Both the position numbers and the translations under genes were made by a program. The notes below the pieces were generated by a model. The model saw only the letters and a program-made list of their open reading frames with translations, did not search any database and was not told where the DNA came from. Positions 1-59,197 of a DNA stretch of 63,062 bases are shown here, piece by piece. The stretch covers positions 1-63,062 of the IMG/VR virus record IMGVR_UViG_3300033429_000003. One strand, 5' to 3'. Source of the stretch: a virus. The first letter of the stretch is position 1. Every line of letters begins with the position of its first letter.

Positions 1-948
1 GGCGTGCCCACCGAGTTTGTCTACGGTGGGATGCAGTTCTCTGGGTCCAACGTATCTATGCGGATACTGGAGAACCACTTCCTCGACCAGAAGGCTCAGC
101 GCAAGCAGCTCATCGACGACTTCATTCTGCCGAACGTCGGGGCGTACATGGGGTGGGACGTTGTCCCTTGCCACTACAAGCGTTTCAAGATGGCTGACGA
201 CCTTCAGCGGTCGGCTCTCTACCTCCAGCTCAACCAGGCCGGCAAGTTGTCCGACAAGAGCTTGCTTGAGGACCTGGACTGGGAGTCCAGCAAGGAGGCC
301 AACACCATCGAGGTCGAGCGCAACCAGGTGCTCGAGGCCCAGCGGCGCCAGGCCATTGCCCAAGCCAACATCCAGGGCGAGGCTCAGCTTGCAGCCATGA
401 AGTACCAGATGCGCGGGCAGAAGATGATGATGGAGCAGGCTCCCCCCGACGCGGCTGCCCAGGGCATGCCCGCCGAGCCCCCCAATCCTGCTGCTGGGGT
501 GCCGGGACAGATGAGCCCCATGGCCGCCGGCGGCATGCAGAACTCTGAGATGGGGATGATGAACCAGACGGGGCAGTTCCCGACCATGGAGGTCCCGCCG
601 GCAGGAGGACCTCAGGCAGGCGCGCCCCCTGGAGAAGCTCCTGCCCAACCTCAGCAAGCCCCGCAGGAAGCTGCCATGCAGCCCGCTCAATCTCAGCTGC
701 AGGCTGGACAGCAGGGTGGCGGGTATGATCTCCAGATGGTCGCGCAGCAGGTTGTGTCGTGGCTCGATCAGCTACCCGAGCACGAGCGCAACCACGAACT
801 CATCAACATGCAGCAACAGAACCCGCAGCTCTACTCCATGGTGCTGCAGATGCTGCAAACGCGTGCCGGCGCCGAGCAGAACTCAGCAGCGGCCCCACTA
901 CCCGAGCAGCGACCCCCTAGACGGGGACCTGAAGCAGCCATGGTGTGA
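1..948 (+). CDS. Portal protein, C-terminal part (gene cut by window start)
   Basis: The reading frame is already open at base 1, so the true start lies upstream. The first 100 residues resemble the C-terminal clip and stem end of large-phage portal proteins: a glycine- and serine-rich GVPTEFVYGG stretch, a long helical segment, then KMADDLQR and a short linker before an acidic helix. The last 170 residues are a low-complexity tail rich in Gln, Pro, Met, Gly and Ala, probably disordered. A portal forms the dodecameric DNA channel at one capsid vertex. The rest of a late module follows in the window, which supports the call. The assignment rests on family resemblance recalled, not on a search. 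Confidence 0.68.
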   Translation, partial: GVPTEFVYGGMQFSGSNVSMRILENHFLDQKAQRKQLIDDFILPNVGAYMGWDVVPCHYKRFKMADDLQRSALYLQLNQAGKLSDKSLLEDLDWESSKEANTIEVERNQVLEAQRRQAIAQANIQGEAQLAAMKYQMRGQKMMMEQAPPDAAAQGMPAEPPNPAAGVPGQMSPMAAGGMQNSEMGMMNQTGQFPTMEVPPAGGPQAGAPPGEAPAQPQQAPQEAAMQPAQSQLQAGQQGGGYDLQMVAQQVVSWLDQLPEHERNHELINMQQQNPQLYSMVLQMLQTRAGAEQNSAAAPLPEQRPPRRGPEAAMV

Positions 949-1763: not shown

Positions 1764-1874
1764 CTACATATCCTCCTCGTAGTCCTCTTCCTCCGGTTCC
1801 AGCTCTAGGTCAGGTTCTTCCTCCATAGTGAAGTCTGAGAAGTCATCGTCCAATTCATACTGGGCATCTGACAT
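1764..1874 (-). CDS. Very acidic 36-residue peptide
   Basis: A short gene starting at ATG 1874, preceded by a purine-rich GGGGGAAA ribosome site seven bases upstream. About half of its residues are Asp or Glu, in the C-terminal two thirds especially, with almost no basic residues. It is transcribed divergently from the RNA polymerase gene. Small acidic phage peptides can be DNA mimics or bind polymerase, but nothing in the sequence proves that here. The longer open frame reaching to 2519 is antisense to the polymerase and not believed. Confidence 0.55.
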   Translation of the reverse strand: MSDAQYELDDDFSDFTMEEEPDLELEPEEEDYEEDM

Positions 1875-1911: not shown

Positions 1912-1948
1912 ACTTTTCTTATACCGAGTTTCCTTGCTTCCTTTCTGA

Positions 1949-2045: not shown

Positions 2046-5000
2046 ATGGCGCACCTGCAGCCGGTCGACGCATTTGAAACTCTCAAAGATAGAACTTCCA
2101 AGACAATATCGAGCTACTTCCCGATCGAGGGTAAGAAGAGTACCCTCCGGGCCAAGAAGGTGTGGGTGGACGACAACCTTGCATGGGGGGACTTGCGTAC
2201 TCAGAAAGACGCAAAGCTCAAGGGGCGCTCGTGGGCGGTACCTGTCCGGGCGGAGCTCGAGTTGGTCGACAAGACTACGGGGAAGGTGAAGGACACCCAG
2301 ACGGTCACTCTGGCGCAGATACCCAAGATAACAAATCGGTACAGCTACATCGTGGGCGGCAACGAGTACCAGGTGACCAACCAGTTCCGCTTGAAGGCGG
2401 GGGCGTACACTCGGGTGCGGGCCAACGGTGAGCTGACCACGCAGTGGAACCTTCCTGAGGGCGGGCTTGGGTTCGACGTCAACTTCGACCCTCGAACAAA
2501 GAAGATGACGATGCGACACGTGGGGAAGGGGTCCAACATTGCCCTGTACCCTGTGCTCAAATCCTTGGGGATGGACGACGACACGATAGAGAGGCAGTGG
2601 GGCCGGGAGATATTCAACGTCAACAAGAAGGAGAACGAAGAGGTGGCCCTCAAGAAGTTCTACAAGACCTTCAAGGGCACCAACCCCCCGAGCATGGATG
2701 CAGCGAAAAGCCTGGTAGTGGAGGAGATGGGGCGCACCAAGCTTCGTCCGGATGCCACGGCTCTCACCCTGGGTAAACCGTTCACACAGGTTACGGGCCC
2801 TGCTCTGATGGCGGGTTCCCGCAAGCTATTGCGCGTGTCCCGTCAGGAAGAGAAGCCAGACGACCGCGACGCGCTGCAGTTCAAAGACATTCTCTCCGCT
2901 GAAGACTTGGTGAGCGAGCGCTTGGAGCGTGGGCAGACCCGACGCGTCATCACTCGGAAGATAACCAACACGTTGGACAAGCGTACCAAGGTGAAAGAGA
3001 TCGTAAATCCCGACTTCTTTGGGAAGCCGGTCAGGTACTTCTTCACCAACTCTACCCTGTCAGAACGGTCTGACCAGACCAACCCGGTCAGTTTCCTCGT
3101 TGGGAACCGGCGGACAACCATAATGGGCGAGGGCGGCATCTCCAGCGACTTGCAGCTCAGCAACGAAGCCAAGTCCGTCAACCCCAGCCACATGGGTTTT
3201 CTCGATGTTATCCAAACTCCCGAGGGGGAAAAGACCGGTATTTCTCTGCAGTTAGCGATGGGCGCCCGGAAGTATGGGAAGGAGCTGAAGACTCAGGTCT
3301 ACGATGTCAAGAAGGGCAAGAACATCAACGTGACGCCGCTTCAGGCTTTGAAGGCCAACCTGGCGTTCCCCGATCAGTACAAGTGGAAGGGAAACAAGGC
3401 GACGCCTGTGGGCCCGTCCATCAAGGTGGCTGACAAGAATGGGGATATAACGACCGTCAAGCCCTCAGAGGTAGATTACGTCATGAAGTCGGCGAAGGGC
3501 GTCTTTGACATCGGGGCTAACATGATTCCCTTTCTGCAGAACGACCAAGGGAATCGAACGATGATGGGGGTGAAGCAGATCGAGCAGGCTATCGGCCTAG
3601 CAAGTAGGGAAGCTCCTCTGGTTCAGGCAGCCGGTGAGGGGGGCCGCACGGCTGAAAGGATCGTGGGTCGATTCGTGTCCCAGAGGTCCCCGGTAGACGG
3701 CGTGGTTTCCAGGGTAACCACGGAAGCCGTTTACGTGAAGGACGCGGCAGGCCGGGAGCACGAACGTCAGATCTACGACAACTTCCCGCTCAATGAGGAC
3801 AAGAGCAAGCTCCACTCCACCCCCTTGGTGAAAGTGGGAGACACCGTTAAGGCGGGGCAGACTTTGGCTGACTCCAACTTCACCCGTGGGGGTGACCTGG
3901 CGTTGGGCACCAACCTGCAGGTCGCCTACATGCCCTACAAAGGCTACAATTTCGAGGACGGAATTGTTGTCTCGGAGTCGGCAGCAAAGAAGCTGACCTC
4001 CGACCACATGTTTCGCCAGGGCATCACGGCTGAGAAGAACACCATCCTCAACAAGAAGAAGTTCCTTGCTGAGACGGCCGGGTCAGTTACGCAGGAACAG
4101 GCTGACAAGCTTGACGACTTCGCTATCGTCAAACCTGGGATGACGGTAAACCAGGGAGACGTTCTTATCGGGGCAATGAAGAAGCAGGAGGTCACCCCCG
4201 AGCAGAAGAAGCTTGGTATGTTCTCCAAATCCTTCCTACGGCCGGCTAGACCGAATGCTCTTCGGTGGGAGAAGGAAACACCGGGTGTTGTCACGCGAGT
4301 GGTCAAGCACGGGAAGGACACAACTGTCTACGTTAATACTCAGGCCCCTGCTACCATCGGGGACAAGATCGTGGGTCGGCACGGTAACAAGGGGATCATA
4401 ACGCACGTCTTGCCAGACCATGAAATGCCTAAGACCAAGAGTGGTAAGGTGGCGCAGGTACTGCTGAACCCAACTGGGATCCCCTGTTACGACGAGGAGA
4501 CGGAGTTCCTGACCACGGACGGTTGGGTGGCGGCCCAAGACATCTCTATGGACCATACCTTCGCCACCCTGAACACAAAGACGTTGGTCATGGAGTTCCA
4601 GGAACCTGAGGAGGTGTACCACATGCCCCACAAGGGGAGCATGTACTGCCTCAGGAACCAGCAGTTGGATATGATGGTGACCCCCAACCACAAGCAGTTC
4701 TCTGCTCGCCGGGGCAACCAAAAGCTGTACGGGTCCATTGACCTAGATGACCCGGAGCTGCCTTCCCTCTTCGAGTTGAAAGAGTCTAGGGAGATCGCAC
4801 GTGAGCCGCGAAGGTACTTGAAGGCTGCCAAGTGGCAAGGAGACCGAGAGTTCTTTTACTACATACCGTCCGGGTCTCCGTCAGGGGGTGGCAAGCCCGC
4901 AGCAGGGATCAATGTATCCTCGATAAGGTGGGCAGAGTTCATGGGCTGGTACCTCTCTGAGGGCAGCACCTATTTCAACCAGTCCAACTATGGGTACATC

Positions 5001-8000
5001 ACTGAGATATCTCAGAGTCGATACGCGAACCCCACGAAGTACGAGAGGGTAGAGGCCCTTGTCCAGTCGATGATGGGAGACGCCTACGAGGCGGTGGAGA
5101 GGGGCATAAGGATCAAGCACAAGGGGCTGTACGAAAAGCTATCTCCTCTGGGGAGGGCGAGGGACAAGTTCATACCTAGAGAGATTCTGGACATGCCGCC
5201 AGACCACTTGAGCGTGTTCTTGGGCGCTCTCATGGCAGGAGATGGTTCCGAATATTGGAATGAGGAGACCGGGCATTACGGGTGTAGGACGTACTGGACG
5301 TCGTCCAAGCTGCTTGCGGACGGCGTCCAAGAGGTTGCTGCAAAACTGGGGATAGCTGCCAACATCAAGAGGGAGACTCGGAATGGGGATGAGGCCTGCT
5401 ACTACCTCTCCTTGAGTGGCAGTCGCATAGCCCCTTGGGTGAACTGGTCTACCACTACCAAGGCGCACCAGTACGAAGAGTGGGTCCAGTACGACGGAAT
5501 GGTCCACTGTACTACGGTACCGAACGGAGTCTTGTTGGTACGCCGCAATGGCAAGGCCGTATTCAGCGGGAACAGCCGTATCAACGTGGGGCAGGTCTTG
5601 GAAACGGCTGCGGCCAAGATAGCGGAGAAGACGGGGAAGACTTACGAGGTCAACAACTTCGACCCTAACAACAAGGACTATACCAGGAATCTGTTGAAGG
5701 AGCTCAAAGCACACGGCATCAAGGACACTGAGGAGATGGTGGACCCGGCGACGGACAAGTCTTTTGGCCAGGTTCTCTTTGGCCCCCAATACATTCTCAA
5801 GCTCCACCACACTGCGGCCAAAGGTCTGATCGCTCGCTCACGGCACTCCTACGATTCGAACATGGTTCCTACCCGTGGTGGCCCGAAGGGTGGTCAGACC
5901 CTGGACGCCATGGGCATGTACGCTTTGCTGGCGCACAACGCTAGGGAAAATATCCGTGAGGCTCAGACCTACAAAAGCGACAATAACGACAAGTTTTGGG
6001 AGATGATTCAGTCTGGAGACTCACCACCGACGCCGAAGGTTCCTTTCGTCTTCAAGAAGTTTGAGGGGTACCTCCGGGGTATGGGCGTGGACACCGTTAA
6101 GGAGGGCAACGACTTAATCTTGCAGCCCTTGACGGACAAGAAGACTCTCGAGATGAGCAATGGCGAAATCAAGAACCCGAGCCATTCACTACGAGCGAAG
6201 GACCTAAACCCTGAACGCGGTGGTATATTCGACCCCAAGGTTACAGGGACAAAGAGTGTCACCAAAGGACTTGGCGCCAAGTGGTCTCACATAAAGCTGT
6301 CCGAGCGTATGCCGAACCCCGTCTTTGAGAAACCGATTGCTGCCTTGTTGGGCATCCCCGAGAAGCACGTGGGGGCCGTCGTGGCGGGAAGGAAGGAACT
6401 CGAAGGCAAAACGGGGCCAGAAGCTATCTCCAGCGCCTTGAACAAGATCAATGTCGACAAGGAGGCGGAGGCCTTAAGGGCTGCTCTGCCTACCATGCGA
6501 ACGTCGCACTTGAACAAGGCCAACAAGAAGATGAAGCACCTACGTGCTCTACAGAAGGCGGGAATGAGTCCTGTGGACGCGTACATGATGAGGCACCTGC
6601 CCGTGCTGCCACCTACTATGAGGCCCGTCAGCATACGGGACAGCGGAGACCTTGTATTCGACGACCTCAACAATCTCTACACCTCTATCGGGAAGACCAA
6701 CTACCAACTCAACACCATGGACCCGGCGATGCCGGAAGAGGAGAAGAGGCCTCTACAAGAGTCCATGTATGATGAGCTCAAGGCCCTTACCCTCACGGGG
6801 ACAGAGAGCCAGGGCAGACATCTAAACGGTATCGCTGAAACCATTGCGGGCAGGGGAAGCCCCAAGGAAGGGTTCTTCCAGCAGAAGGTGATCGGCCGTC
6901 GGCAAGACCTGTCGATGCGGGGCACCATTGTTCCTGAACCGTCTCTTTCCCTGGACGAGGTGGCTATTCCTCGCAAGGCTGCCGCCGAGCTCTACAAGCC
7001 TTTTGTCGTGGCCAACCTTGTGAGTCGCCGGGGCTACTCTCCACTTATGGCCCAACAGAAAGTGAAGGAAGACGGGGTGGAATCCAGGTCAGCTTTGGAC
7101 GAGGTGGCGGCAGAGCGCCCACTTTTACTCAAGCGCGACCCCGTACTTCACAAGTATGGCGTGCAGGCGTTCAAACCCAAGCTGGTGTCCGGGCAGGCAA
7201 TCAAGATCCATCCCCTGGCTACCACGGGATACAACGCAGACTTCGACGGGGACAAGATGTCTGCCTACGTCCCTGTCAGCCAGAAGGCCGTCCAAGAAGC
7301 CTGGAAGATGATACCTTCCAACAACTTGTTTAGTCCCTCTACCGGCTTCGTGATGTTCAAACCAACCCAGGAGTCCATGCAAGGGTTGTTCAAGCTGACA
7401 GAGATGGGCAAGAAGACCAACAAGTCCTTCAAGACTGCCGGTGCGGCCGCGCGGGCTGTAAAGAGTGGGGAGATAGGACTCGACGATGTAGTTACGATTC
7501 AAGACTTCAGTGGGGTGTCCAACTTGGACAAGCTGGCAGCGGCCCCCAAGCGGACGACGGTGGGCCGAATGATGGTCTACAACGCGCTCCCAGAAGAGGT
7601 CCGATCAGAGTCTATGCTGACTGACAAGAACTTCGTCCTCAATAAGGGAAACCTGCAAGACCTGCTGACGAACGTGGCTGCGATGGATAAGGGGAGCTTC
7701 GGCACGGTGTCCGACAAACTCAAAGACTTAGGCAACTCCCGGTCTACAGGGATGTCTATAAGCTTGGAGGACTTCCTGTCAGACCATGAAGACCGGGATA
7801 GGGTCATGAATCAAGCCCGTAAGGTGGAGAATCAGATCCGAGCTGACAAGAAGCTTTCCCCTGCAAAGAGGGATGAAAAGATAGTACAGCTCTACGTCGG
7901 CGCCGGGAAAGAGATAGACGCAAAGACCAAAGCAAGGGCTGACGCCAAGCCCAACCGGATGTACGATTGGGTACGGTCGGGGGCCAGAGGAAGTTGGGAC

Positions 8001-9308
8001 AACTACAAGCAGATGGTTGTGACTCCTCTCTTGGTTGCAGATACTAAAGGCAAGCCGATCCCTGTCCCCATCGACAGGTCCTACTCGGAAGGACTGGACA
8101 TCGGGTCCTACTGGGCTTCGATGTACGGGGCCCGCATGGGGACCCTCAGCAGGACAGAAGGGACCTGGCGCCCCGGGTACATGTCAAAGCAGATGATGGC
8201 CTCAACCATGAACCAGATGGTTGTCTCGGACGACTGCGGTACCAAGAAAGGGCTGGCGCTACCCCTCGATGAGCGGGACATACTCGGACGCTTCACCGCC
8301 AACGATATCCGCCTGAAGAAGGGCGGCAAGGCAGAGGTTATCCCCGCTGGGACCCTTGTTGATCCCGACGTGGTCAATCGCCTGAAGAACAACCGGGTCA
8401 CCGAGGTACCCGTACGCACCCCGCTCCGCTGCCTGCACGGGAAGGGGATGTGTGCAAAGTGCTATGGCCTGGACGAGAACGGGCAGCTGCCCCAGAAGGG
8501 GGTGAACGTTGGAGTGATAGCGGCCCACGCTCTAGGTGAGCCCGCCACTCAGCTCAGCATGAACGCGTTTCATACGGGAGGTATAGTAGGTGCCAAGGGG
8601 ACAGCAGCGCAGGGGACGTTTGACCGAGTGGACCAGCTGCTGCAAGTCCCCACCATCCTGCCGGGGTCTGCCACGCTCTCCAAGGTAGACGGCACGGTAG
8701 ACAAGGTCGACAAGGACCCCGCCGGTGGGTGGAGCGTCTACGTCAGCGGGCAGCGGCACTACGTCCCCCCGACAAGAGACCTGATTGTGAAGAAGGGGCA
8801 GCCCGTGAAGAGGGGGGAGTCTGTGTCCTCTGGCGTGAAGAACCCGAGAGAGATGCTACCTCTTACGGGCATGCCCACTGTTCAGCGGTACATCACCGAC
8901 GAGCTCCACGGCATCTACAAGGAAGTAGCCCCGGTGAAGCGCCGCAACACGGAGACCTTTGTCCGTGCGATGACCAACTTGAGCAAGGTGACCGACCCGG
9001 GCGACCACGACACCTATCTTCGTGGAGACACTGTTCCTGCTACGGAGGTGGCCCAGTACAACAGTCAGAAAGCATCGGACGCTAAGCCAGTACGCGCTGA
9101 CCCCATCCTACACGGTGTGTCCACCCTACCCCTGGAAGTACAGACGGACTGGCTGGCCCGCATGCAGGCTACCAACCTTCGACGTACCGTTCTGGACGCG
9201 GCGGCAGAGAGGTGGGGGTCCGCCCTGCATTCTACGCATCCGGTGCCCGGCATGGCTTACGGTGCGGAATTTGGTAAGGGGACCCCAGAGAAACCTTGGC
9301 TGTACTAG
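2046..9308 (+). CDS. Single-chain RNA polymerase, beta and beta' fused, with an intein
   Basis: A 2420-residue protein joining the two catalytic halves of multisubunit RNA polymerase. In the beta half, FEDGIVVSE (residue 636 on) and GDKIVGRHGNKG (772 on) match the beta double-psi barrel and its conserved lysines. In the beta' half, NADFDGD (1730-1736) is the metal-binding catalytic loop. C2064, C2129, C2136 and C2139 match the second beta' zinc site, followed by GVIAAHALGEP and FHTGG of the trigger-loop region. An intein fills residues 814-1176, so the mature chain is about 2057 residues, shorter than bacterial beta plus beta' (about 2750 in E. coli). I chose ATG 2046 over 2025 because AAGGGAG lies six bases before it. 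The catalytic motifs are intact, so it should be active. No alpha, omega or sigma gene is visible nearby. Confidence 0.93.
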   Translation: MAHLQPVDAFETLKDRTSKTISSYFPIEGKKSTLRAKKVWVDDNLAWGDLRTQKDAKLKGRSWAVPVRAELELVDKTTGKVKDTQTVTLAQIPKITNRYSYIVGGNEYQVTNQFRLKAGAYTRVRANGELTTQWNLPEGGLGFDVNFDPRTKKMTMRHVGKGSNIALYPVLKSLGMDDDTIERQWGREIFNVNKKENEEVALKKFYKTFKGTNPPSMDAAKSLVVEEMGRTKLRPDATALTLGKPFTQVTGPALMAGSRKLLRVSRQEEKPDDRDALQFKDILSAEDLVSERLERGQTRRVITRKITNTLDKRTKVKEIVNPDFFGKPVRYFFTNSTLSERSDQTNPVSFLVGNRRTTIMGEGGISSDLQLSNEAKSVNPSHMGFLDVIQTPEGEKTGISLQLAMGARKYGKELKTQVYDVKKGKNINVTPLQALKANLAFPDQYKWKGNKATPVGPSIKVADKNGDITTVKPSEVDYVMKSAKGVFDIGANMIPFLQNDQGNRTMMGVKQIEQAIGLASREAPLVQAAGEGGRTAERIVGRFVSQRSPVDGVVSRVTTEAVYVKDAAGREHERQIYDNFPLNEDKSKLHSTPLVKVGDTVKAGQTLADSNFTRGGDLALGTNLQVAYMPYKGYNFEDGIVVSESAAKKLTSDHMFRQGITAEKNTILNKKKFLAETAGSVTQEQADKLDDFAIVKPGMTVNQGDVLIGAMKKQEVTPEQKKLGMFSKSFLRPARPNALRWEKETPGVVTRVVKHGKDTTVYVNTQAPATIGDKIVGRHGNKGIITHVLPDHEMPKTKSGKVAQVLLNPTGIPCYDEETEFLTTDGWVAAQDISMDHTFATLNTKTLVMEFQEPEEVYHMPHKGSMYCLRNQQLDMMVTPNHKQFSARRGNQKLYGSIDLDDPELPSLFELKESREIAREPRRYLKAAKWQGDREFFYYIPSGSPSGGGKPAAGINVSSIRWAEFMGWYLSEGSTYFNQSNYGYITEISQSRYANPTKYERVEALVQSMMGDAYEAVERGIRIKHKGLYEKLSPLGRARDKFIPREILDMPPDHLSVFLGALMAGDGSEYWNEETGHYGCRTYWTSSKLLADGVQEVAAKLGIAANIKRETRNGDEACYYLSLSGSRIAPWVNWSTTTKAHQYEEWVQYDGMVHCTTVPNGVLLVRRNGKAVFSGNSRINVGQVLETAAAKIAEKTGKTYEVNNFDPNNKDYTRNLLKELKAHGIKDTEEMVDPATDKSFGQVLFGPQYILKLHHTAAKGLIARSRHSYDSNMVPTRGGPKGGQTLDAMGMYALLAHNARENIREAQTYKSDNNDKFWEMIQSGDSPPTPKVPFVFKKFEGYLRGMGVDTVKEGNDLILQPLTDKKTLEMSNGEIKNPSHSLRAKDLNPERGGIFDPKVTGTKSVTKGLGAKWSHIKLSERMPNPVFEKPIAALLGIPEKHVGAVVAGRKELEGKTGPEAISSALNKINVDKEAEALRAALPTMRTSHLNKANKKMKHLRALQKAGMSPVDAYMMRHLPVLPPTMRPVSIRDSGDLVFDDLNNLYTSIGKTNYQLNTMDPAMPEEEKRPLQESMYDELKALTLTGTESQGRHLNGIAETIAGRGSPKEGFFQQKVIGRRQDLSMRGTIVPEPSLSLDEVAIPRKAAAELYKPFVVANLVSRRGYSPLMAQQKVKEDGVESRSALDEVAAERPLLLKRDPVLHKYGVQAFKPKLVSGQAIKIHPLATTGYNADFDGDKMSAYVPVSQKAVQEAWKMIPSNNLFSPSTGFVMFKPTQESMQGLFKLTEMGKKTNKSFKTAGAAARAVKSGEIGLDDVVTIQDFSGVSNLDKLAAAPKRTTVGRMMVYNALPEEVRSESMLTDKNFVLNKGNLQDLLTNVAAMDKGSFGTVSDKLKDLGNSRSTGMSISLEDFLSDHEDRDRVMNQARKVENQIRADKKLSPAKRDEKIVQLYVGAGKEIDAKTKARADAKPNRMYDWVRSGARGSWDNYKQMVVTPLLVADTKGKPIPVPIDRSYSEGLDIGSYWASMYGARMGTLSRTEGTWRPGYMSKQMMASTMNQMVVSDDCGTKKGLALPLDERDILGRFTANDIRLKKGGKAEVIPAGTLVDPDVVNRLKNNRVTEVPVRTPLRCLHGKGMCAKCYGLDENGQLPQKGVNVGVIAAHALGEPATQLSMNAFHTGGIVGAKGTAAQGTFDRVDQLLQVPTILPGSATLSKVDGTVDKVDKDPAGGWSVYVSGQRHYVPPTRDLIVKKGQPVKRGESVSSGVKNPREMLPLTGMPTVQRYITDELHGIYKEVAPVKRRNTETFVRAMTNLSKVTDPGDHDTYLRGDTVPATEVAQYNSQKASDAKPVRADPILHGVSTLPLEVQTDWLARMQATNLRRTVLDAAAERWGSALHSTHPVPGMAYGAEFGKGTPEKPWLY
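4485..5573 (+). mobile_element. LAGLIDADG intein in the beta part of the RNA polymerase
   Basis: A 363-residue in-frame insert beginning with Cys and ending with Asn, followed by Ser as the first downstream host residue. It splits the highly conserved beta motif NPTGIP/SRINVGQVLE, which becomes contiguous after splicing. Block B shows TPNH about 65 residues in. Two endonuclease motifs are visible, FMGWYLSEGS and LGALMAGDGS, so this is a full intein with a LAGLIDADG homing domain. The C-terminal end reads FSGN, with Gly instead of the usual penultimate His, a known but less common variant. Splicing must work for the polymerase to function. Confidence 0.92.
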
Positions 9309-13901: not shown

Positions 13902-15398
13902 GTGGACCTACTGGCGTTCCAAGACGAGTTGGAGAAGATAGCTAGTCTTCGGTCGTCAGTTACCCTGCGACCTCACCAACAGGAGGCAGTTGACTTCATC
14001 CTAGACAATGGGGGTAGGGGCCTTCTGGCACACGCTACGGGCTCAGGAAAGACCTTTTCATCTCTAGCCGTCATAGAGAAGCTCAGGGAGAAAGGGGAGG
14101 CGGGCAAGACTCTCGTGGTGCTCCCCGCGTCCCTTAAAACCAACTTCTCCAAGCGAGGGGTAGAAAAGTTTACCGACCGTAGTCACGGGGACGTTGGCTC
14201 TGGGGCAGACTATCAGATTGTGTCTCTAGAGAAGTTCAGGAAGGACCCGTCCGGGGTCTTGGGGGCTTCAGGGGCTGACTCTGTGATCCTAGACGAGGTT
14301 CACAGAGCGAAGGACCCTTCTACAGCTACGCATAAGGCGTACAAGGAGATAGCCCCAAAAGTAAAGAACCTAGTAGGGCTTACCGGCTCCTTTATCTCCA
14401 ACCATCCTCGAGAGCTTGTACCGGTTATGGACATCATCAACCCGGAGCATACTCTGGGGTCTCAGGCAGGTTTCACCAAGAAGTACACGAAGCGGGAGAT
14501 GGTGTCTGGGGGCGGGTTCTTGAAAAGGAGCCCGAAGTACCGCACTACCCTGAAAAACCGCAGGCCTCTCCACGGTAAGATTAAGGGGAAGCTCCACTAC
14601 CTCGGCCATGACGAACTGAAAGATTTGCCGGCTCTGGACGTGCAGGATGTGCAAGTCCCCATGTCAGAGGAGCAGGACAAGCATTATAGGTTTGCGATGG
14701 GCTCGCTTTCTAGCAGGCAGAGGAAAATGATTAGGGATGGGCTTCCTGTCAGTCAGCGAGAGGCCCAGATGATTCTGCCCATGATTTTAAGGGCCCGGCA
14801 GGCGTCCAACTCTATCGGGGTGCACGCAAAAGTGCCCGACGCCGACGCCGCAGAGCTGACCCCCAAGCTCAAGAAGGTCATGGATGACATGGAGAAGCAC
14901 CTCAAGGAGACCAAGGATGGGCGGGCAATAGCCTACACGAACTTCGTTGACGGAGGGGCTAGGGAGCTCCATGCAGGACTGAAAGCCCGGGGGTTGAAAC
15001 CGGCTCTCTATTCGGGGGTCAACAAGAAGACCAGGGACAGCGAGCTAGAAGAGTTCAAGAAGGGGAAGCGGCGGGCTATCGTGCTGACACCTGCCGGCGG
15101 AGAGGGTATCAGTCTGGATAACGCTACCTTCTTTGCAGAGGTTGACCGGCACTACAACCCGGAGAGAAACCAACAGGCGGTAGCAAGAGGTAGGCGCCTA
15201 GGTGGGCTGGCGCATAGACTCCCTGAAGACCGGACCTTGCAGGTGCGGCGGTACTACTCTACTCCTAATACTTCCTGGTTCAGACGACTCATTGGGGCAG
15301 AGGACGTAGGAGTGGACGAGTGGGTCGGCATGGTAGCCAAGGAAAAAGACATCCTCAATGAGGAAATGAGGGCGGTTGCCAGAGGGAGCAAGTCGTGA
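13902..15398 (+). CDS. SF2 helicase of SNF2-like type
   Basis: A 498-residue helicase. Walker A reads ATGSGKT with Lys at residue 50, Walker B is DEVH at 131-134, and the C-terminal RecA domain carries the QAVARGRRLGG motif VI plus a TPAGGEGISL motif V. GTG 13902 is the start, with GAGGAG overlapping the previous stop. Its first residues, LLAFQDELEKIA, contain a short motif shared by several other late proteins in this genome, so it may be packaged or processed with the virion. The next gene starts inside its stop codon (GTGA). It probably remodels DNA-bound proteins or DNA branches, but the substrate is unknown. Confidence 0.85.
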   Translation: MDLLAFQDELEKIASLRSSVTLRPHQQEAVDFILDNGGRGLLAHATGSGKTFSSLAVIEKLREKGEAGKTLVVLPASLKTNFSKRGVEKFTDRSHGDVGSGADYQIVSLEKFRKDPSGVLGASGADSVILDEVHRAKDPSTATHKAYKEIAPKVKNLVGLTGSFISNHPRELVPVMDIINPEHTLGSQAGFTKKYTKREMVSGGGFLKRSPKYRTTLKNRRPLHGKIKGKLHYLGHDELKDLPALDVQDVQVPMSEEQDKHYRFAMGSLSSRQRKMIRDGLPVSQREAQMILPMILRARQASNSIGVHAKVPDADAAELTPKLKKVMDDMEKHLKETKDGRAIAYTNFVDGGARELHAGLKARGLKPALYSGVNKKTRDSELEEFKKGKRRAIVLTPAGGEGISLDNATFFAEVDRHYNPERNQQAVARGRRLGGLAHRLPEDRTLQVRRYYSTPNTSWFRRLIGAEDVGVDEWVGMVAKEKDILNEEMRAVARGSKS

Positions 15399-18184: not shown

Positions 18185-18210
18185 CTGTTACCTTATACCC
18201 GGAAAGTAGC

Positions 18211-21200
18211 ATGCCAATCGTTGAGCTCAAATCAGAAACCACTCCGTACGACTATATGGAAGAGGATGAGAGTGTTCATAGCGTCGAGTGGGCAGACGAG
18301 GAAGAGGAACGGCAGCACTACGACTTGGACGTGCCTGCGGGAGTCCGGCCGTCGGAGTTCGTGGAGTTCGCGGTTTACATGCCGGGGGGCGGGGACCTCC
18401 ATCAGTTTAGCTTCAGGGACCGCCAGTACCTGAAGACCATCTACAACTCGCCCGCAAAGCGCAAGCTCTTGATGGCGGGACGTCAGGTAGAAAAATGCGA
18501 GTGTTTACAAGGACTTACGTCACTCAACTCTGGGTACCTCAAGAAAGCCGGGGACGTCAAGATAGGTGATTGCCTGGCCTCGATGACTCGTCCGGACACA
18601 GAGATGGGCACGGGCCGTGTGTCATGGCTGTCGAAGATATACACCAAGCCATGTGTCAAGATAACTACCAGGCAGGGGCACGAGACGTGGGTGGCGAAGA
18701 CGCACCCCATGCGTCTGTTTGGTAGATGGGTGCCCGCAGGGGAATTGACGTCAGGTACTCGTCTGTCCGTGGTGCGGAAGTGCGGAGAGTTCCTCCAGCT
18801 CAAGGAAAGCGTCGAGCGCATCAAGGCCACGGCGTACTTGCTGGGAGACGGAGGCCTGGGAGGCCCCTGTGTCTTGTTCCATTCCAAGTCTGCTACGAGG
18901 ATGCAGGAGTTCAAGAGCCTGGTGGCGGGTGTTGGGGACACGGGTCGAGTGGAGGGCGACCACTCCTACCGCGTGCATCGGGGGATTATCCGAGGATGGC
19001 TAGAAGATGATGGTCTCCTAGGCAAGCTCTCTGCGGACAAGTTCATTCCCGAGTGGGTGTTCAACCTCTCTAGGAAAGACACCGCCCTGTTCCTACGCAC
19101 TCTCTGGTCCACAGATGGCCATATCAAGAAGGTCTCCCGGTCCAAGCACGACATTGTCTACTCCTCCATCGCCAAGCGCCTGGTCCTCGACGTTCAAGCC
19201 CTCTTGTGGAAGTTCGGCATCCCGACCGGGCTGCGCTCTTACGTGCCCGAGGTCTATGAGGGGGCTGACAAGGTGCACTGGATGCTGCGGGTTGAGACTC
19301 AGGATGGCATCAACCGTTTCCTCAGCGAGATATCTAATGTGGGCCGCGACGGGTACTTGGTGGCCTCTGCAGACATGCCCGAGAACAACAATCGGGACAC
19401 TTACCCGATCGAAATCAATGACCTGCTCGTGCGCATCCAGGAGAGCGGAGACGATTCGTGGCAGGGGCGCCGAGGTCGGAGCCTACATGCTTCGGGCCTA
19501 CGTAGGACGCTGAAGTCCCCGCCCACCCGGGGCAAGCTTGAGAAGTATTGGGACTTCTTCCTCGAAGGTGGATACGACCAGCAGCTAGTAGACGAGTTGA
19601 GAGCGCACATCTTCACAGACCTCTATTGGGATGAGATAGAAACCATCGAAGATGTAGGGGAGCAGGAGTGCGTAGACTTTGAGGTAGAGGACACGCACAA
19701 CTTCGTGCTGGATGGGTTCGTCACCCACAATAGCACCCTGCTGGGCAACGAGAACTTGGCGTACATGGCTATCACCAACTACTTCCGGTGCCTGTACGTT
19801 AGCCCTTCTAACACGCAGACCAAGGTCTTCAGCCGGGACCGCATTCAGGAGCCCATTGATACCTCTCCTGTGCTGAGCCAGTTTACCAATGGCAGGCTGC
19901 TCAAGAACGTCTTCGAGAAGAAGTTTGTCAACGGTTCTCAAATCACCATGCGGTTCGCGTTTCTCAACGCAGACCGCGTGCGCGGCATTCCTGCGGACAA
20001 GATTACGATCGACGAGTTCCAGGACATCCTCCTGGACAACGTGCCTGTCATTGAGGAGTGCGCTTCGCACTCCGAGTACAAGTTGTTCACCTATGCGGGC
20101 ACACCGAAGTCGTTGGACAACGCCATCGAGCACTACTGGGCCCGCTTCTCTACTCAGAACGAGTGGTCGGTCCCCTGCAAGCATCACGGCACGCCGAAGA
20201 ATTCGTCTTCGTGGTTCTGGAACGTCTTGGCGGAAGACAACATAGGAGACGACGGGCTTATCTGCAGCAAGTGCGGCAAACCCATTTCTCCGAAAGACCC
20301 CGACTGCTCATGGGTGTCACTCAACCCCAACCCGAAGGTGGAGAAGCCCTACGAGGGGTACCGCATCCCCCAGTTGATGGTTCCCTGGATAGATTTCAGC
20401 GACATCAAGGACAAGCAGAAGAAGTACAGCCGGGCCAAGTTCTACAACGAGGTGCTCGGCCGCAGCTACGACTCTGGTACCCGACCCCTCACGCGCACCG
20501 ACATGATTCGGAACTCCTGGTCTGAGCTGTCGATGACGTACTACCGAGAAGTCATCCAATATTGCCAGCAATATCCAGTATTTATGGGACTTGACTGGGG
20601 CACGGGAGAGGGCTCGTACACGGTGATGTCGCTTGGTGGGTACCTTCCGTTTGCCCCGGATCTCTTCACGTTCTTCTACCTCTACCGGTTCGAAGGGATG
20701 GAGTCCGAGCCCAAGGAGCAACTCCGCATCATCAAGCAGCACGCGCGAGAGTTCAATGTGCGCTACATCGGGGTTGACTACGGCGGCGGTTTCTGGCCCA
20801 ACGACGAATTGGTACGTGAGTTCGGTGCAGACAAGATCAAGAAGTACCAGTGGGTTGGCAACGTCAAGAAGAAGATTCAGTTCGACCCTAAGCTAGGCGT
20901 CCCACGGTTCTTGTGTCACCGTACTGAGGTCATGTCGGACATGTTCAACGCCGTCAAGCGGGGCAACGTGTTCCGCTTCCCTCGGTGGGAGGAATTCGAG
21001 GACCCCTACGCCAGGGATTTTCTCAACATCTTCTCGGAGTACAATGAGCGAATGCGGATAAACGTCTACAAGCATGCTCCGGGGAGCCCGGATGACACGT
21101 TCCACTCATGCTGTTTCGGATTTTTGGCTTCCTTCTATTATCGTGCGCGCCCAGACGTTATCCTACCCTCAAAGGAAGTGGAGAGGGAATACAGGTCCAA

Positions 21201-21222
21201 TGAACCGAATGACATCACGTGA
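18211..21222 (+). CDS. terL: Terminase large subunit, interrupted by an intein
   Basis: A 1003-residue precursor; the mature protein is about 591 residues. It is the ATP-driven DNA packaging motor and genome-cutting nuclease. Walker A GRQVEK/ST is rebuilt by splicing (K95 next to S508). Walker B reads ITIDEFQD. The RNase H-like nuclease domain shows FMGLDWG, YIGVDYGGG and a distal PDDTFHS acidic motif. A CSKCGK and CKHHG region in between gives a possible zinc finger. GGAAAG precedes the start. All catalytic motifs appear intact. No small terminase subunit could be identified in the window. Confidence 0.95.
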   Translation: MPIVELKSETTPYDYMEEDESVHSVEWADEEEERQHYDLDVPAGVRPSEFVEFAVYMPGGGDLHQFSFRDRQYLKTIYNSPAKRKLLMAGRQVEKCECLQGLTSLNSGYLKKAGDVKIGDCLASMTRPDTEMGTGRVSWLSKIYTKPCVKITTRQGHETWVAKTHPMRLFGRWVPAGELTSGTRLSVVRKCGEFLQLKESVERIKATAYLLGDGGLGGPCVLFHSKSATRMQEFKSLVAGVGDTGRVEGDHSYRVHRGIIRGWLEDDGLLGKLSADKFIPEWVFNLSRKDTALFLRTLWSTDGHIKKVSRSKHDIVYSSIAKRLVLDVQALLWKFGIPTGLRSYVPEVYEGADKVHWMLRVETQDGINRFLSEISNVGRDGYLVASADMPENNNRDTYPIEINDLLVRIQESGDDSWQGRRGRSLHASGLRRTLKSPPTRGKLEKYWDFFLEGGYDQQLVDELRAHIFTDLYWDEIETIEDVGEQECVDFEVEDTHNFVLDGFVTHNSTLLGNENLAYMAITNYFRCLYVSPSNTQTKVFSRDRIQEPIDTSPVLSQFTNGRLLKNVFEKKFVNGSQITMRFAFLNADRVRGIPADKITIDEFQDILLDNVPVIEECASHSEYKLFTYAGTPKSLDNAIEHYWARFSTQNEWSVPCKHHGTPKNSSSWFWNVLAEDNIGDDGLICSKCGKPISPKDPDCSWVSLNPNPKVEKPYEGYRIPQLMVPWIDFSDIKDKQKKYSRAKFYNEVLGRSYDSGTRPLTRTDMIRNSWSELSMTYYREVIQYCQQYPVFMGLDWGTGEGSYTVMSLGGYLPFAPDLFTFFYLYRFEGMESEPKEQLRIIKQHAREFNVRYIGVDYGGGFWPNDELVREFGADKIKKYQWVGNVKKKIQFDPKLGVPRFLCHRTEVMSDMFNAVKRGNVFRFPRWEEFEDPYARDFLNIFSEYNERMRINVYKHAPGSPDDTFHSCCFGFLASFYYRARPDVILPSKEVEREYRSNEPNDIT
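18496..19731 (+). mobile_element. LAGLIDADG intein in the terminase Walker A motif
   Basis: A 412-residue insert starting at Cys96 and ending with the canonical His-Asn (VTHN), with Ser508 as the downstream nucleophile. It lies exactly between Lys and Ser of the P-loop, so the unspliced protein cannot bind ATP. Block B-like KTHPMR, endonuclease motifs TAYLLGDGG and FLRTLWSTDG, and the block F FVLDGFVTHN are all visible, so both splicing and homing domains look complete. Confidence 0.94.
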
Positions 21223-23580: not shown

Positions 23581-24366
23581 ATGAACCCACTTCTTGAGAA
23601 GCTGGCCCAGAGCGGCCTTACCGAGGAGCAAGTCCAACGGGCCCAGGAGCGGGCAGAGGACTTCCTGAAGGCCGCTAGTAGCAACGGGTCTTTGAGGAAA
23701 GAGCTCATGGAGAAGATGGGCTTCTCCCCCTGGTCTACCGTGAAGTCGGTTGGACAGACGGCTGGGAAGATGTTTGCCCCCGTGATGGGGCAAACTCTTG
23801 CCTACACCGCTGCTGGTGCTGCTCTCGGTGGGGGTGCTTTTGCTGCCCGGAGGGGATACGAGGCGATTGAGAGTCGGCTGGGTAAAGCCAAAGCCTACAA
23901 GGAGATGGTGGAGGCTCGTCCGGAGCTGAAAGACCGGGACCCCAAGGCGGTTCAGAGGGCCTTTGACAGCTTGTACCGGTTCAACCCCCGCTACGCCAAG
24001 GACCCGCTCGTGGCCGGCTCGTTCGTGGACTCAGTGTCCTCCAGTGAGCGGCTGGACCTCGGGACCGTCAACGCTCTTGTCTCCGCCCGTAAGGGTCTGG
24101 ACGGGGCCCCGTTCGACCCGAGCAAGTATGTGTCCATGAAGGTTCCTGGGCCGGAAGAAATGTCCATCCGGCAACAGCAGGAAGGGCGGAGTGCGGAGGA
24201 GCACAAGGCCAAGATGGAGCAATACGACCAATTGCAGCGTCATAGGGGAGAAGAGCACCCGGTCAAGATGGAGGACTACGCTAGGAAAGAAGAGAAGCAT
24301 GAGTGGGATAGGCCCAAAGAGAAGCATGTAGACCCTATGACCACGATGTATACGGGCGGGAAATGA
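23581..24366 (+). CDS. Conserved-looking phage structural protein
   Basis: A 261-residue protein. It has an N-terminal helical region, a hydrophobic Ala/Gly stretch near 75-90, a conserved-looking core (KAVQRAFDSLYRFNPRYAKDP and VAGSFVDSV, about 120-150) and a highly charged C-terminus rich in Lys, Glu and His. I recall similar core phrases in structural genes of other large phages, which makes a virion role likely. Its stop overlaps the next start as ATGA, coupling it to the protease fusion. Confidence 0.62.
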   Translation: MNPLLEKLAQSGLTEEQVQRAQERAEDFLKAASSNGSLRKELMEKMGFSPWSTVKSVGQTAGKMFAPVMGQTLAYTAAGAALGGGAFAARRGYEAIESRLGKAKAYKEMVEARPELKDRDPKAVQRAFDSLYRFNPRYAKDPLVAGSFVDSVSSSERLDLGTVNALVSARKGLDGAPFDPSKYVSMKVPGPEEMSIRQQQEGRSAEEHKAKMEQYDQLQRHRGEEHPVKMEDYARKEEKHEWDRPKEKHVDPMTTMYTGGK

Positions 24367-27300
24367 TCACAAAGCTAGCCACTTTCCGCGGGGTGACCGA
24401 CCGAGGGGACCCGCTCGTCCAGGTTTTCCGCCAGGGGAGCTCGGTCACCAAGGTGGCGGGCAACCTCATGCAGCCCATTCAGGACTGGCTGGGCGCCTAC
24501 AAGTCTGACTCCCGGAAGATAGCTATCCTAGTCAATGCCCTTGGCGCCTCAGAGTTCTGGGGGCAGAACGTCAACGGGGACATCTTCCCAGAAAGCGCTC
24601 TCATCCACGACTGCCGCTGCCACCCTGGCGAGCAGCACCCCGTGGATGACTTCTCGGGTAAAGTGGTTCCTCCCTACGGCTATTGGACCTTCCTCAACGC
24701 GTTCCCCTACGTCCACCACCGGAACAAAGACCCGACGAGGGCCTTCGGGAAGGTGGCGGTGGCTTGTTGGAACCCGAAGATGAAGCGGGTCGAGCTCGTC
24801 GTGCTCATTGACCGCCACCTGGCAATGCAACATGACGCTCAGCACATAGTCGACCGCGTCGACCGCGGAGATTATCCAGATGTTTCAATGGGTTGTAGGG
24901 TACCGTATGACGTCTGCACCTGCTGTGGCAACAAGTCTAAGACCCGCAACGATTACTGCTCGTGCATCAAGAACATCGGCATGGGCAAAATCCTCGACGA
25001 CGGGAGACAAATCGGGGTCGTCAACACCTACCCGAGGTTCTTCGACATCAGCTTTGTTTTCATCGGGGCGGACAAGACCGCCAAGATGATGTGCAAGTTG
25101 GGGTCCGCCGGGGCGCCCCAATCTGTTCTCGACGCCGAGCGCGTCTACAACTTCGAGGAGACCCCGGAAGGCCTCATCAAGGCAGCTTGCGGCCGGAAGG
25201 GTGGGTGTTCTGAGTGCCCCGGTAAGTGTAAGGTCGCCGAGCCTCGTATTGCGGGAGTCTCCTTGGAAGAGTCGGACAGGATACTCTCGGGATTGAGGGG
25301 GGCGGCTGCAGGGGCGGTGCAGGGGCACACTCCTGCGGACGCGGCGCTGAAAGCAGCTCGAGGGGCGGCCAAGCGCATTGGCCTGGACAAGGCAACCAGG
25401 CCCGCCTCTCTCAAGGTTAAGGGGGTGCCCAAGCGTATGTCCCAGAAGCGGGAGGCGCAAATGGCCGAGAAGCTCCTCAAGAAGGTCTCTGCCGAGCAGT
25501 CCCGGTTCACCGCCGAGGTGTATTCCGAGGGCACCGGCGAGCCTACCCAGCATAAGAAGCTGACCAAGGAGACCGAGGACGGTCTGAGCAAGACCATCCT
25601 CCGGCGATTCGCCCCGCCGCCCCCGTCTTCCCAGACCGTCTATGGGAGGGAGGACCCCCAGGACGATGAGGGGATGCGTGTCCTGCCTACGAATGAGAAC
25701 ACTCCAACCGACGGGGTAGACGACGACACCAAGTTGTCAAGCGCCGTATCCCACGTGCTGCCCCACGCCGTCGAGCGCGTCTATCATCTGCGGGGTCACC
25801 CGGAGACCCTGGAGAACCTGGACAAGCAGCTTTTGATGATGCAAGCGGCAGGTAGCTGGGGGGCCAGTAGGGGCATTCGGAGCTCGATTGACGGCGACGG
25901 ACATGAGTGGCTGAAGGTCAAAGGGGCCCCTGGCAGTCTGGAAAAGGAAAAGCTCAAGAAGGAGATGGACAAGAGCGAGGTCGATGTCCACTCCCTCAAG
26001 AAGGAAGCGAAGATAGTAGGGGAAGGGGGAGGCACCTCAAGCGGCGAAAAGACCTATCTTACGGAATTCAGGACGGGTAAGAGATTCAAGTACGGCGACG
26101 ATTTCATAGTCGAAGAGATGTTGCCTGCAGACTCTGATATCAAGAGGAGGAAGGCCTACATGCTGCGGTCGTCTAAGGACGGGCAGCTGTTGGCCCAGAC
26201 GGGCACTGACGACTTTGGCTCCTATATACGACTAGCATTTCAGCACACCCCAAAAGAGCACAGGCGTAAAGGGTACGGGACAAGCCTCCTAGCAGCGGTT
26301 GGCAGGCTCAACCCGGACAAGAAGTTTGTGGCGGTTCCTGACCCCTTCATGGACAGGTCTGCCTCTGTAGAGGACCTGACCAAGTTCTACAAGGAGAGCG
26401 GTTTTGGGGTAGCAGGCGACTATGGTGATGGACGACCTCTCATGGTTCGGGCCTCCTACAATGCTGCAAGGAACTACCACAAGGAGAAGAGCGCCGCCTT
26501 CAAGATGGGCCCTCCGCCGAGCCCGAACAGGGACAAGTTCCCGTTCGTTGGCACCATCAACTTTCGTGGGCTGCTCATCTACGTCGAGAACGCCCCGGGC
26601 ACCTGGCGCACCGGACCTGGCTGGAAGACTCTGATGAAGGTCCCCTACGGGGAGTTCGCCCGGTCACTGGGGACAGACGGGGACAAGCTGGACGTCTACG
26701 TGGGACCGGACAGGAACTGCGAGAACGTCTTCATCGTCCACCAGAACTTTGTTCGTGGGCCAAAGAAGGGCGAGTACGACGAGGACAAGACGCTTCTAGG
26801 TTTTTCCTCCCCAAAAGATGCCAAGAGTGCGTACTTGGCTCACTATGACAGCCCGGACTTCTTTGGCTGTATGTCCATGATGCCTTTTTCTGAGTTCAAG
26901 AGGCGGTTGGACCGCTCGAAGGGGGGATATGTAGAGCATTCAGAGTATTCCCATCCGTTTGAACCCAGCGCGGATCGCTTGCACGGTAACCCCGAACTTG
27001 CTCGCGATTTCGTCAATAGTATGTTTCTCTTTGTAGAGGGCCGCCGCCTCATCTCTGTCCCAAAGTCTGCGCTCGGGGCACGTACGGTTTTCACGAGAGG
27101 TGGGAAGCCCCCGTCTGGAGAATACTCTGAACACCGCAGAGGTGCTTACCCCGAGCTTCCTCGCGACCTTCTCGATAGAAAGACCCTCATCCCAAAGAAC
27201 CAGCGCCTCCTCCATCGACCAAAGACGCGGGCCTCCGTGAAGACGGCGGTGCTCGGATTGAGTGATTATTTCCAGGTTGTCAACGGCGTTGTTAAGCCCA

Positions 27301-32649: not shown

Positions 32650-33765
32650 ATGAGTATCGTTCAAGCAAGCATCGAGCTCTTCAATCAGCGGCTCGATAGC
32701 CAGGAAGGCAAGACCAAGATTGCAGAACTGGGCGGGTCCTGGATCCGTGACAGGCTGCGTGAAGTGGCGTACTCGCGTCACATCTTGCCGCCAGAGCAAG
32801 TCACCCGTGCCGACTGCCAGCGCTCGGTCAACCACGACACGTTGGTCAAGATCGTGGACGTCGAGCCCCAGAGCCGTGCCATGGCTATCACGTTCCGTGA
32901 CCAGCCGACGGCTCGGTTCATCCGTGGCCCCAAGGCGGAGATCCCCTTCTTCACCATCTCCTCGGAGAAGTTCGAGAAGACGGAGCAGGAGCTCCTCGCC
33001 TACGAGATGCCCATCACCAAGGTCATCGAAGACAACTCGGTGAAGGACATCCAGGAGATCGAGGACCATCAGTTCACCCGTCACATCGAGACGGCGGTCC
33101 AAGCTCTCCAGCTGGAAGTCAACGGCACAGGCACGGGCTACAACGCCACGGCCGTCAGGGCCGGCACAGAGGTGGCAGTGTCCATCGTCAAGGGCGAGCT
33201 TGCCCTGGCGGCGGACGGTATCACCTTCACCGACTTCCCCATCCAGCGCCCGGACTTCGTGGCCCTCTTCAAGCTGCTCGACAACAACCGCTTGCGGTCG
33301 GAGCGAGTGCTCATCACAGAGGGTGACCACGACGACGTGCTGCAGTGGACCACGGAAGACTTCGGCGACAAGATTGCGTCGGAGACGGTGGTCGACGGCT
33401 ACAAGTACAACACGCTGCTCGGCCGCAAGGTCGTCCGGACCATCAAGACGGACATCCTCCGGGTCGGCAACGTGTACTGCTTCGCCGCTCCACAGTTCTT
33501 CGGCAAGTTCTACATCCTCAACAACACCAAGTTCTACATCGACAAGATCGCCAACGTCATCACCTGGCAGAGCTGGGAAGACATCGGCATGGGCTTGGTC
33601 AACATCTCCGCCGTGCGCAAGCTCGAGCTCTACAGAGGCTCGGTCAAGCCGTCCGACACCGACACCGGCTTCGCAGCCAAACTGCCGCTGGCGGAAGAGG
33701 ATCTTGGCGCAGAAAACAATCGGGTTGATCAGGGGCTCCATTACCCTGACGTGCAACAATACTAG
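32650..33765 (+). CDS. Major capsid protein (HK97 fold)
   Basis: A 371-residue protein starting after AAAGGAG. It has the features of HK97-fold coat proteins: an N-terminal helical arm, a beta-rich centre with RFIRGPKAEIPFF near 95, a long spine helix (RHIETAVQAL near 142), and a C-terminal half with LLGRKVVRTIK, YCFAAPQFFGKF and WEDIGMGLVNISAV strands. No large N-terminal scaffold domain precedes the coat domain, so a separate scaffold is expected from the genes upstream. A hairpin and an HNH gene follow directly. Confidence 0.88.
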   Translation: MSIVQASIELFNQRLDSQEGKTKIAELGGSWIRDRLREVAYSRHILPPEQVTRADCQRSVNHDTLVKIVDVEPQSRAMAITFRDQPTARFIRGPKAEIPFFTISSEKFEKTEQELLAYEMPITKVIEDNSVKDIQEIEDHQFTRHIETAVQALQLEVNGTGTGYNATAVRAGTEVAVSIVKGELALAADGITFTDFPIQRPDFVALFKLLDNNRLRSERVLITEGDHDDVLQWTTEDFGDKIASETVVDGYKYNTLLGRKVVRTIKTDILRVGNVYCFAAPQFFGKFYILNNTKFYIDKIANVITWQSWEDIGMGLVNISAVRKLELYRGSVKPSDTDTGFAAKLPLAEEDLGAENNRVDQGLHYPDVQQY

Positions 33766-59099: not shown

Positions 59100-59197
59100 C
59101 TCCCCTCCAGTTACCCGTAAGGACGCCCACAAGCCTTATACCCGATTGGTATTTTCCTTTATCACTGATGTGCTAGCATTAGGTAAAGGAGGCTGTC
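59100..59197. promoter_or_regulatory. Divergent intergenic region
   Basis: It separates the minus-strand cluster from the plus-strand gene at 59198. It is AT-richer than its surroundings, with TATAAG reading leftward as a possible -10 and no convincing -35 on either strand. Strong ribosome sites at both edges show that two transcripts diverge here. Confidence 0.35.

Follow-up and report, generated by a model that had tools for sequence, protein, structure and literature searches.

A fused beta-beta' RNA polymerase in a large family of tailed phages, possibly carried in the virion with its own sigma factor

Analysis of a linear IMG/VR record of 63,062 bases, a phage genome fragment (the whole stretch is hereafter called the window), revealed an RNA polymerase (RNAP) gene in which beta and beta' are joined in a single chain, and comparison with relatives showed that this fusion is a general trait of a large, barely described phage family. 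The reading we favor, at a probability of roughly 70%, is that the enzyme is the single-chain virion holoenzyme of a myovirus family and serves early transcription. A broader proposal, for which we see slightly better than even odds, is that virions of a widespread tailed-phage family bring along a full transcription apparatus, comprising a one-chain core free of alpha and omega, a FliA-like sigma, and an early promoter of the form AA-N16-GGTATAAG-N5-TG. If true, we know of no earlier example of a bacterial-type core that depends on a sigma, consists of one polypeptide, and does without alpha, and the enzyme would also be a virion holoenzyme. In cells, RNAP is assembled from several polypeptides on an alpha scaffold; should the phage enzyme be active, a natural core of one chain served by its own sigma would offer a minimal model for the working and evolutionary assembly of sigma-dependent transcription and possibly an orthogonal expression tool. 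The analysis also ties an isolated virus, Salmonella phage Arash, to a large uncultured family and supplies a candidate early-promoter code, open to testing, for genomes that are mostly unannotated.

One plus-strand frame is open from an ATG at 2025 (2,427 aa) to a stop at 9308 in the ORF list, and the ATG at 2046 is the likely gene start because it has a better ribosome site (GGGAGTCGGAG) than that at 2025 (Table 1). Pfam assigned Rpb2 domains 3 and 6, Rpb1 domains 2 and 5, and LAGLIDADG_3 to the frame (best E 3e-53), while the Rpb1 domain 1 match of 38.4 bits fell just under the 39.7 cut-off; chance is ruled out for a frame of such length with these domains. An intein occupies frame residues 821-1183 (363 aa, C1...GN/S, slashes marking junctions) inside the conserved beta motif NPTGIP/SRINVGQ, and its removal from 2,420 residues leaves the single beta-beta' chain of 2,057 residues that the first-pass annotation of the DNA had described. 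The intein is lacking in the relative L004, whose chain is otherwise the same (2,173 aa; 41.8% identity across the whole length), and in many other relatives.

Table 1. Features of the window discussed in the text (positions in the 63,062-base stretch).
Feature	Position	Strand	Basis
Portal protein, C-terminal part, cut by window edge	4..948	+	BLAST: Arash gp204 portal E 6e-7, L004 portal E 3e-45
Small acidic ORF, 36 aa, read from promoter-like site 1925-1918	1764..1874	-	ATG 1874, GGGGGAAAT upstream
Promoter-like GGTATAAG, pointing away from RNAP gene	1918..1925	-	motif scan
Fused beta-beta' RNA polymerase gene	2046..9308	+	ORF, Pfam, alignment; 2057 aa after intein removal
Beta part before intein, including NFED and GDKIVGRHGNKG (DNA 4359-4394)	2046..4484	+	bacterial beta alignment; Pfam PF04565, PF00562
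Intein with LAGLIDADG homing endonuclease	4485..5573	+	PF14528 E 6e-8; boundaries C1...GN/S
Beta C-terminal part up to junction (LRGMGVDTVKEGND)	5574..6086	+	alignment
Beta' part without first zinc ribbon	6087..9305	+	alignment; AlphaFold model; PDB matches
NADFDGD	7233-7253	+	spliced residues 1367-1373
Bridge helix	about 8130-8205	+	beta' alignment
Zinc Cys codons	8235-8237 and 8430-8462	+	beta' alignment
Trigger loop	about 8510-8590	+	beta' alignment
SNF2-type helicase, homologue of Arash particle protein gp217	13902..15398	+	PF00176 E 2e-16; BLAST E 5e-45
Second GGTATAAG copy	18192..18199	-	motif scan
Terminase large subunit (TerL) with own intein	18211..21222	+	PHROG 675 E 2e-56; Intein_splicing and LAGLIDADG_3
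Major capsid protein homologue (Arash gp226)	32650..33765	+	BLAST E 8e-36
Third GGTATAAG copy, then GGAGGGGAG and minus-strand ATG	59135..59142	-	motif scan

Alignment with bacterial proteins spans essentially all of beta and then passes directly to the beta' N-terminus with no linker domain, the junction reading ...FKKFEGYLRGMGVDTVKEGND / LILQPLTDKKTLEMSNGEIKNPS... with its second part matching the bacterial beta' N-terminus. The residue alignment shows the first zinc ribbon and about 35 further residues deleted from beta', and an estimate from BLAST bounds of ~170 absent N-terminal residues was rejected on this ground. The first ribbon is missing in all aligned family members. Exactly four cysteines are found in the spliced chain (1701, 1766, 1773, and 1776), corresponding to the second bacterial beta' zinc site, which 29-30 of the 32 aligned sequences retain; the beta' zinc cysteines claimed from the sequence alone therefore hold for the second site and not for the first. 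In L029, the cysteines of the second site are also replaced, giving an RNAP without either zinc site. The active-site elements are preserved in the alignment, including both double-psi-barrel (DPBB) domains, the Asp triad of NADFDGD, the beta GDK/NKG lysines, and NFED, and the bridge helix and trigger loop (QLSMNAFHTGG) are retained by alignment and fold match. The barrels, NADFDGD loop, and trigger-loop region listed in the first-pass annotation were all recovered by Pfam and alignment, and the catalytic triad, whose loss it had named as contrary evidence, is intact. The chain also has a flap whose tip reads TPEQKK and a stretch aligning with the clamp coiled coil, to which sigma region 2 binds in bacterial enzymes. 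An AlphaFold model of 5574-9170 with 28 relatives (pLDDT 84.7, pTM 0.80) had bacterial beta' chains as its best PDB matches (TM about 0.74). The identity of the polymerase as a bacterial-type two-barrel beta/beta' RNAP is firm.

A profile scan yielded 215 viral stretches with relatives, of which 80 were kept and joined by L004 to give 81 loci. One frame of at least 1,900 aa was held by 71 of them (54 distinct), and most of the remainder are cut by contig ends. An independent sample of 80 loci, picked by a DNA pattern for NADFDGDxM, contained 24 clear fusions nearest the window's family, one deeper (basal) fusion with an adjoining portal (L205, 2,328 aa), stand-alone beta' genes in about 20 other loci, and a phiKZ-like break in several more; no rpoBC fusion was found among 65 sampled bacterial loci. 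A portal homologue was detected by HMM upstream of the RNAP in 54 of 59 testable related loci, and family records hold one RNAP locus each. The window agrees with both features by which we define these Arash-like fused-RNAP phages: its portal gene lies ahead of the polymerase, and the fused chain has lost the first zinc ribbon. The enzyme is no isolated oddity, fusion being the rule in a large family.

The beta tree and the beta' tree, both unrooted and with bacteria as their cellular members, each separated the fused phages from 25 bacteria drawn from many phyla (SH-aLRT 100), and the suggested phylogeny of both halves thus sets the phage clade outside every sampled bacterial group. When split-RNAP phages were added, nearly all of them fell in separate groups; the sole split-RNAP locus nested among the fused phages, L206, is a fused gene interrupted by an in-frame TGA. 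This codon (1028-1030 of L206) lies near the beta C-terminus and may reflect recoding, real fission, or a sequencing error. Relatives of the Cobetia/Yersinia and Rhizobium enzymes were not found in the scans. Some public "phage" records are bacterial chromosome with rpoB/rpoC (L007 and L009; CAKLQH020000005 and OR844998), and top hits bearing the names Acinetobacter phage MD-2021a and "Staphylococcus phage SA 1306 Kay" were set aside as bacterial chromosome.

The myovirus Arash belongs to the same family and has homologues of the window's portal, RNAP, SNF2 helicase, TerL, capsid, and baseplate-region genes, whose order is mostly conserved; this agrees with the contractile-tailed origin proposed for the window. 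Arash differs in having its RNAP in two genes and an AADYDGD active site: gp206 comprises beta together with the N half of beta' and gp216 supplies the remainder of beta', the chain being broken once, inside beta', after the beta' DPBB/NADFDGD region. In Arash and Vibrio phage D69 (L003 and L008), this break falls roughly 100 residues past the active site, near the phiKZ-type beta' split, and the IMG/VR loci L196, L213, L227, L247, and L266 end at about the same point. Mass spectrometry of Arash particles detected 116 proteins including metabolic enzymes, among which gp206 had the most spectra (3,516) and unique peptides (128) of any protein, with 40 unique peptides for gp216, 24 for the sigma gp10, 38 for the helicase gp217, 32 for the portal, and 30 for the capsid; the authors called gp206 and gp216 beta and beta', did not note the fusion, and left carry-over of abundant proteins open (PMC10585845). 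Per 100 residues, the unique peptides amount to 8.4 for gp206, 6.6 for gp216, 10.3 for gp10, 8.1 for gp217, 5.5 for the portal, and 9.8 for the capsid, against 0.2-1.4 for likely carry-over such as primase, ligase, reductase, and other replication or metabolism enzymes. RNAP and sigma peptides thus occur at capsid-like density in the particles of a relative with its RNAP in two chains, and the earlier suggestion of virion packaging gains support from this one relative. By analogy, the polymerase is probably packaged in the virion of the window's phage.

A promoter-like element, AA-N16-GGTATAAG-N5-TG, whose core reads CTTATACC on the plus strand and includes a host-like -10 (TATAAG), was first picked out from Arash upstream regions, and the window, the IMG/VR loci, and the strand counts served as tests on other data. 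The window holds three copies against 0.46 expected (0 of 100 shuffles reached three); on the minus strand, the copies at 1925 and 59142 each lead into a ribosome site and ATG. Of 60 distinct loci, 22 have the core beside the start of the RNAP gene (1.2 expected), and 11 family records contain 130 copies compared to 38 of the reversed pattern, oriented 109:21 opposite to the RNAP gene (p 2e-15). Three phages whose RNAP gene is not fused showed no enrichment (9 vs. 17 reversed). Of the 31 copies in Arash, 30 have minus-strand orientation, and 25 of these lie 12-60 nt upstream of minus-strand gene starts (12.8% expected, p 3e-18), where the next NNTATANN word occurs twice compared to 25 times for GGTATAAG. 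Outside Arash, 40 sites share AA at -18/-17 and TG at +13/+14. The Arash minus strand carries nucleotide-metabolism and replication genes and the plus strand most structural genes, and the minus-strand (non-structural) genes are probably the early genes. An initial candidate, CTTATACC as promoter of the RNAP gene, was rejected since the strand counts and Arash gene starts show the opposite direction. Together, these patterns suggest that the phage enzyme may use GGTATAAG as a promoter.

Neither alpha (PF01000) nor omega (PF01192) was detected in 24 records each, the window itself being a fragment. Pfam sigma models gave few matches, and with Arash gp10 as query a sigma homologue was identified in 18 of the 21 long fused-RNAP contigs and in D181, with the gp10 family profile adding an edge fragment in one more long contig. 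Sigma regions 2, 3, and 4 are represented in the family (2 and 4 weakly in single members), and FliA/WhiG models are among the best matches; Arash encodes a second sigma, gp196. No gp10-type sigma was found in the 63-kb window, for which its being a fragment is the best explanation. Of the first-pass statement that alpha, omega, and sigma genes are not visible, the part on alpha and omega was upheld and that on sigma was overturned by a divergent FliA-like sigma in most long relatives. The "simplified assembly" suggested for the fused enzyme is plausible, and co-occurrence and the FliA-like profile suggest a possible link between the gp10 sigma and the GGTATAAG motif. The sigma gene of G006, G014, G015, and G021 lies close to a contig end, perhaps a physical genome end or repeat.

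In the favored model of a virion holoenzyme, the RNAP would be made late together with the structural genes, the precursor chain would shed its intein, and the spliced chain would fold alone or with few partners before entering the particle together with the gp10-type sigma and, perhaps, the SNF2 helicase. The packed RNAP would be injected and start early transcription without host RNAP at GGTATAAG promoters, which would mostly face away from the structural strand, and the late genes would be read by the host enzyme or by the phage core with another sigma (gp196 in Arash).

The polymerase could instead be produced in the infected cell to transcribe middle or late genes, without serving in the virion, and have reached the Arash particles by the carry-over that the Arash authors named as possible. 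We consider this unlikely: the metabolic enzymes in the particles fit it, as does the single RNAP per genome, from which it follows that late genes also need a polymerase, but the peptide density of RNAP, sigma, and SNF2 helicase equals that of portal and capsid and is far above likely contaminants, the RNAP gene lies next to the portal gene in the structural block, and the motif marks the non-structural strand. We give little credence to a precursor cut into beta and beta' at particle assembly, such that the working enzyme is not one chain. Maturation proteases often cleave phage head proteins and beta' of Arash and D69 has a natural break; however, the junction aligns without a linker, signs of cleavage were not found, and the breaks known so far are not at the junction but past the NADFDGD region.

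The GGTATAAG element might also have nothing to do with the phage enzyme and serve as a host-sigma promoter or a repressor/operator site, which we regard as somewhat unlikely. Its TATAAG is one base from the host -10 consensus TATAAT and a bound repressor could equally conserve such a site, but neither readily accounts for the excess over the next NNTATANN word on Arash minus-strand genes, the conserved downstream TG with a -35-like AA in place of TTGACA, the same element in Arash and many unrelated contigs, and the lack of enrichment in phages with a non-fused RNAP gene. A recently captured bacterial rpoBC fusion of the Helicobacter/Wolbachia kind, or an assembly join, was rejected as extremely improbable: bacterial rpoBC fusions exist, but the sampled bacterial loci are unfused (0/65), the trees place the phage clade outside, no aligned member has the first zinc ribbon, and the same join recurs in many independent contigs.

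Phage multisubunit RNAPs, single-chain phage RNAPs, and bacterial rpoBC fusions are already known. The Helicobacter and Wolbachia fusions have beta then beta' in one chain as in the window, but are cellular and come with alpha, omega, and the first zinc ribbon. The crAss single-chain RNAP is virion-packaged. The P23-45 single-chain enzyme is virion-packaged too, and the crAss-like, YonO, and P23-45 DPBB RNAPs resemble the window enzyme in being single chains (PMC7481178; PMC10770324) but are highly divergent from cellular RNAP, whereas the window enzyme keeps a nearly complete bacterial domain set and, in contrast to those systems, its family's genomes encode a sigma. The phiKZ/AR9-type RNAPs likewise lack alpha and omega and include a virion form for early genes, but have beta and beta' each split, at least four polypeptides, and two RNAPs per genome (PMC7598289) compared to one fused ORF here, and no sigma homologue was reported for them (PMC7824862). 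The multi-subunit RNAP-encoding Caudovirales (mReC; Weinheimer and Aylward, 2020; PMC7481178) are similar in their IMG/VR source, their phage beta and beta' clade beside bacteria, and the kept NADxDGD, and differ in being described as having two subunits, with fusion never mentioned. The mReC capsids were reported as PF07068 (PMC7481178), which was found in 0 of 24 fused-RNAP records (the window, 21 IMG/VR contigs, Arash, and D181) and in all 3 phages whose RNAP gene is not fused; some of the 97 published mReC contigs may belong to the fused-RNAP family. Reports of the fusion, the family sigma, or the promoter were not found in the open-access literature searched, which is weak evidence of absence.

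Several further features accompany these genes. Inteins within the beta' catalytic motif were identified in L067 and L061, and also in L062, L065, and L066; the host sequence in L067 and L061 reads ADFDGN/C...VWD/TM, so that ordinary splicing would leave Asn at the third catalytic Asp position, and the context in L064 differs (NADFDGD/QQ...SN/T). No introns were found with Rfam in six related loci. The intein of the window TerL also carries a homing endonuclease. Between portal and RNAP, downstream of GGTATAAG, two small Cys-rich (zinc-finger-like) ORFs lie on the minus strand at 1041-1693, and a 1,469-aa protein at 24363-28772 has an inorganic pyrophosphatase-like domain (PF18823) and is partly homologous to the Arash particle protein gp222.
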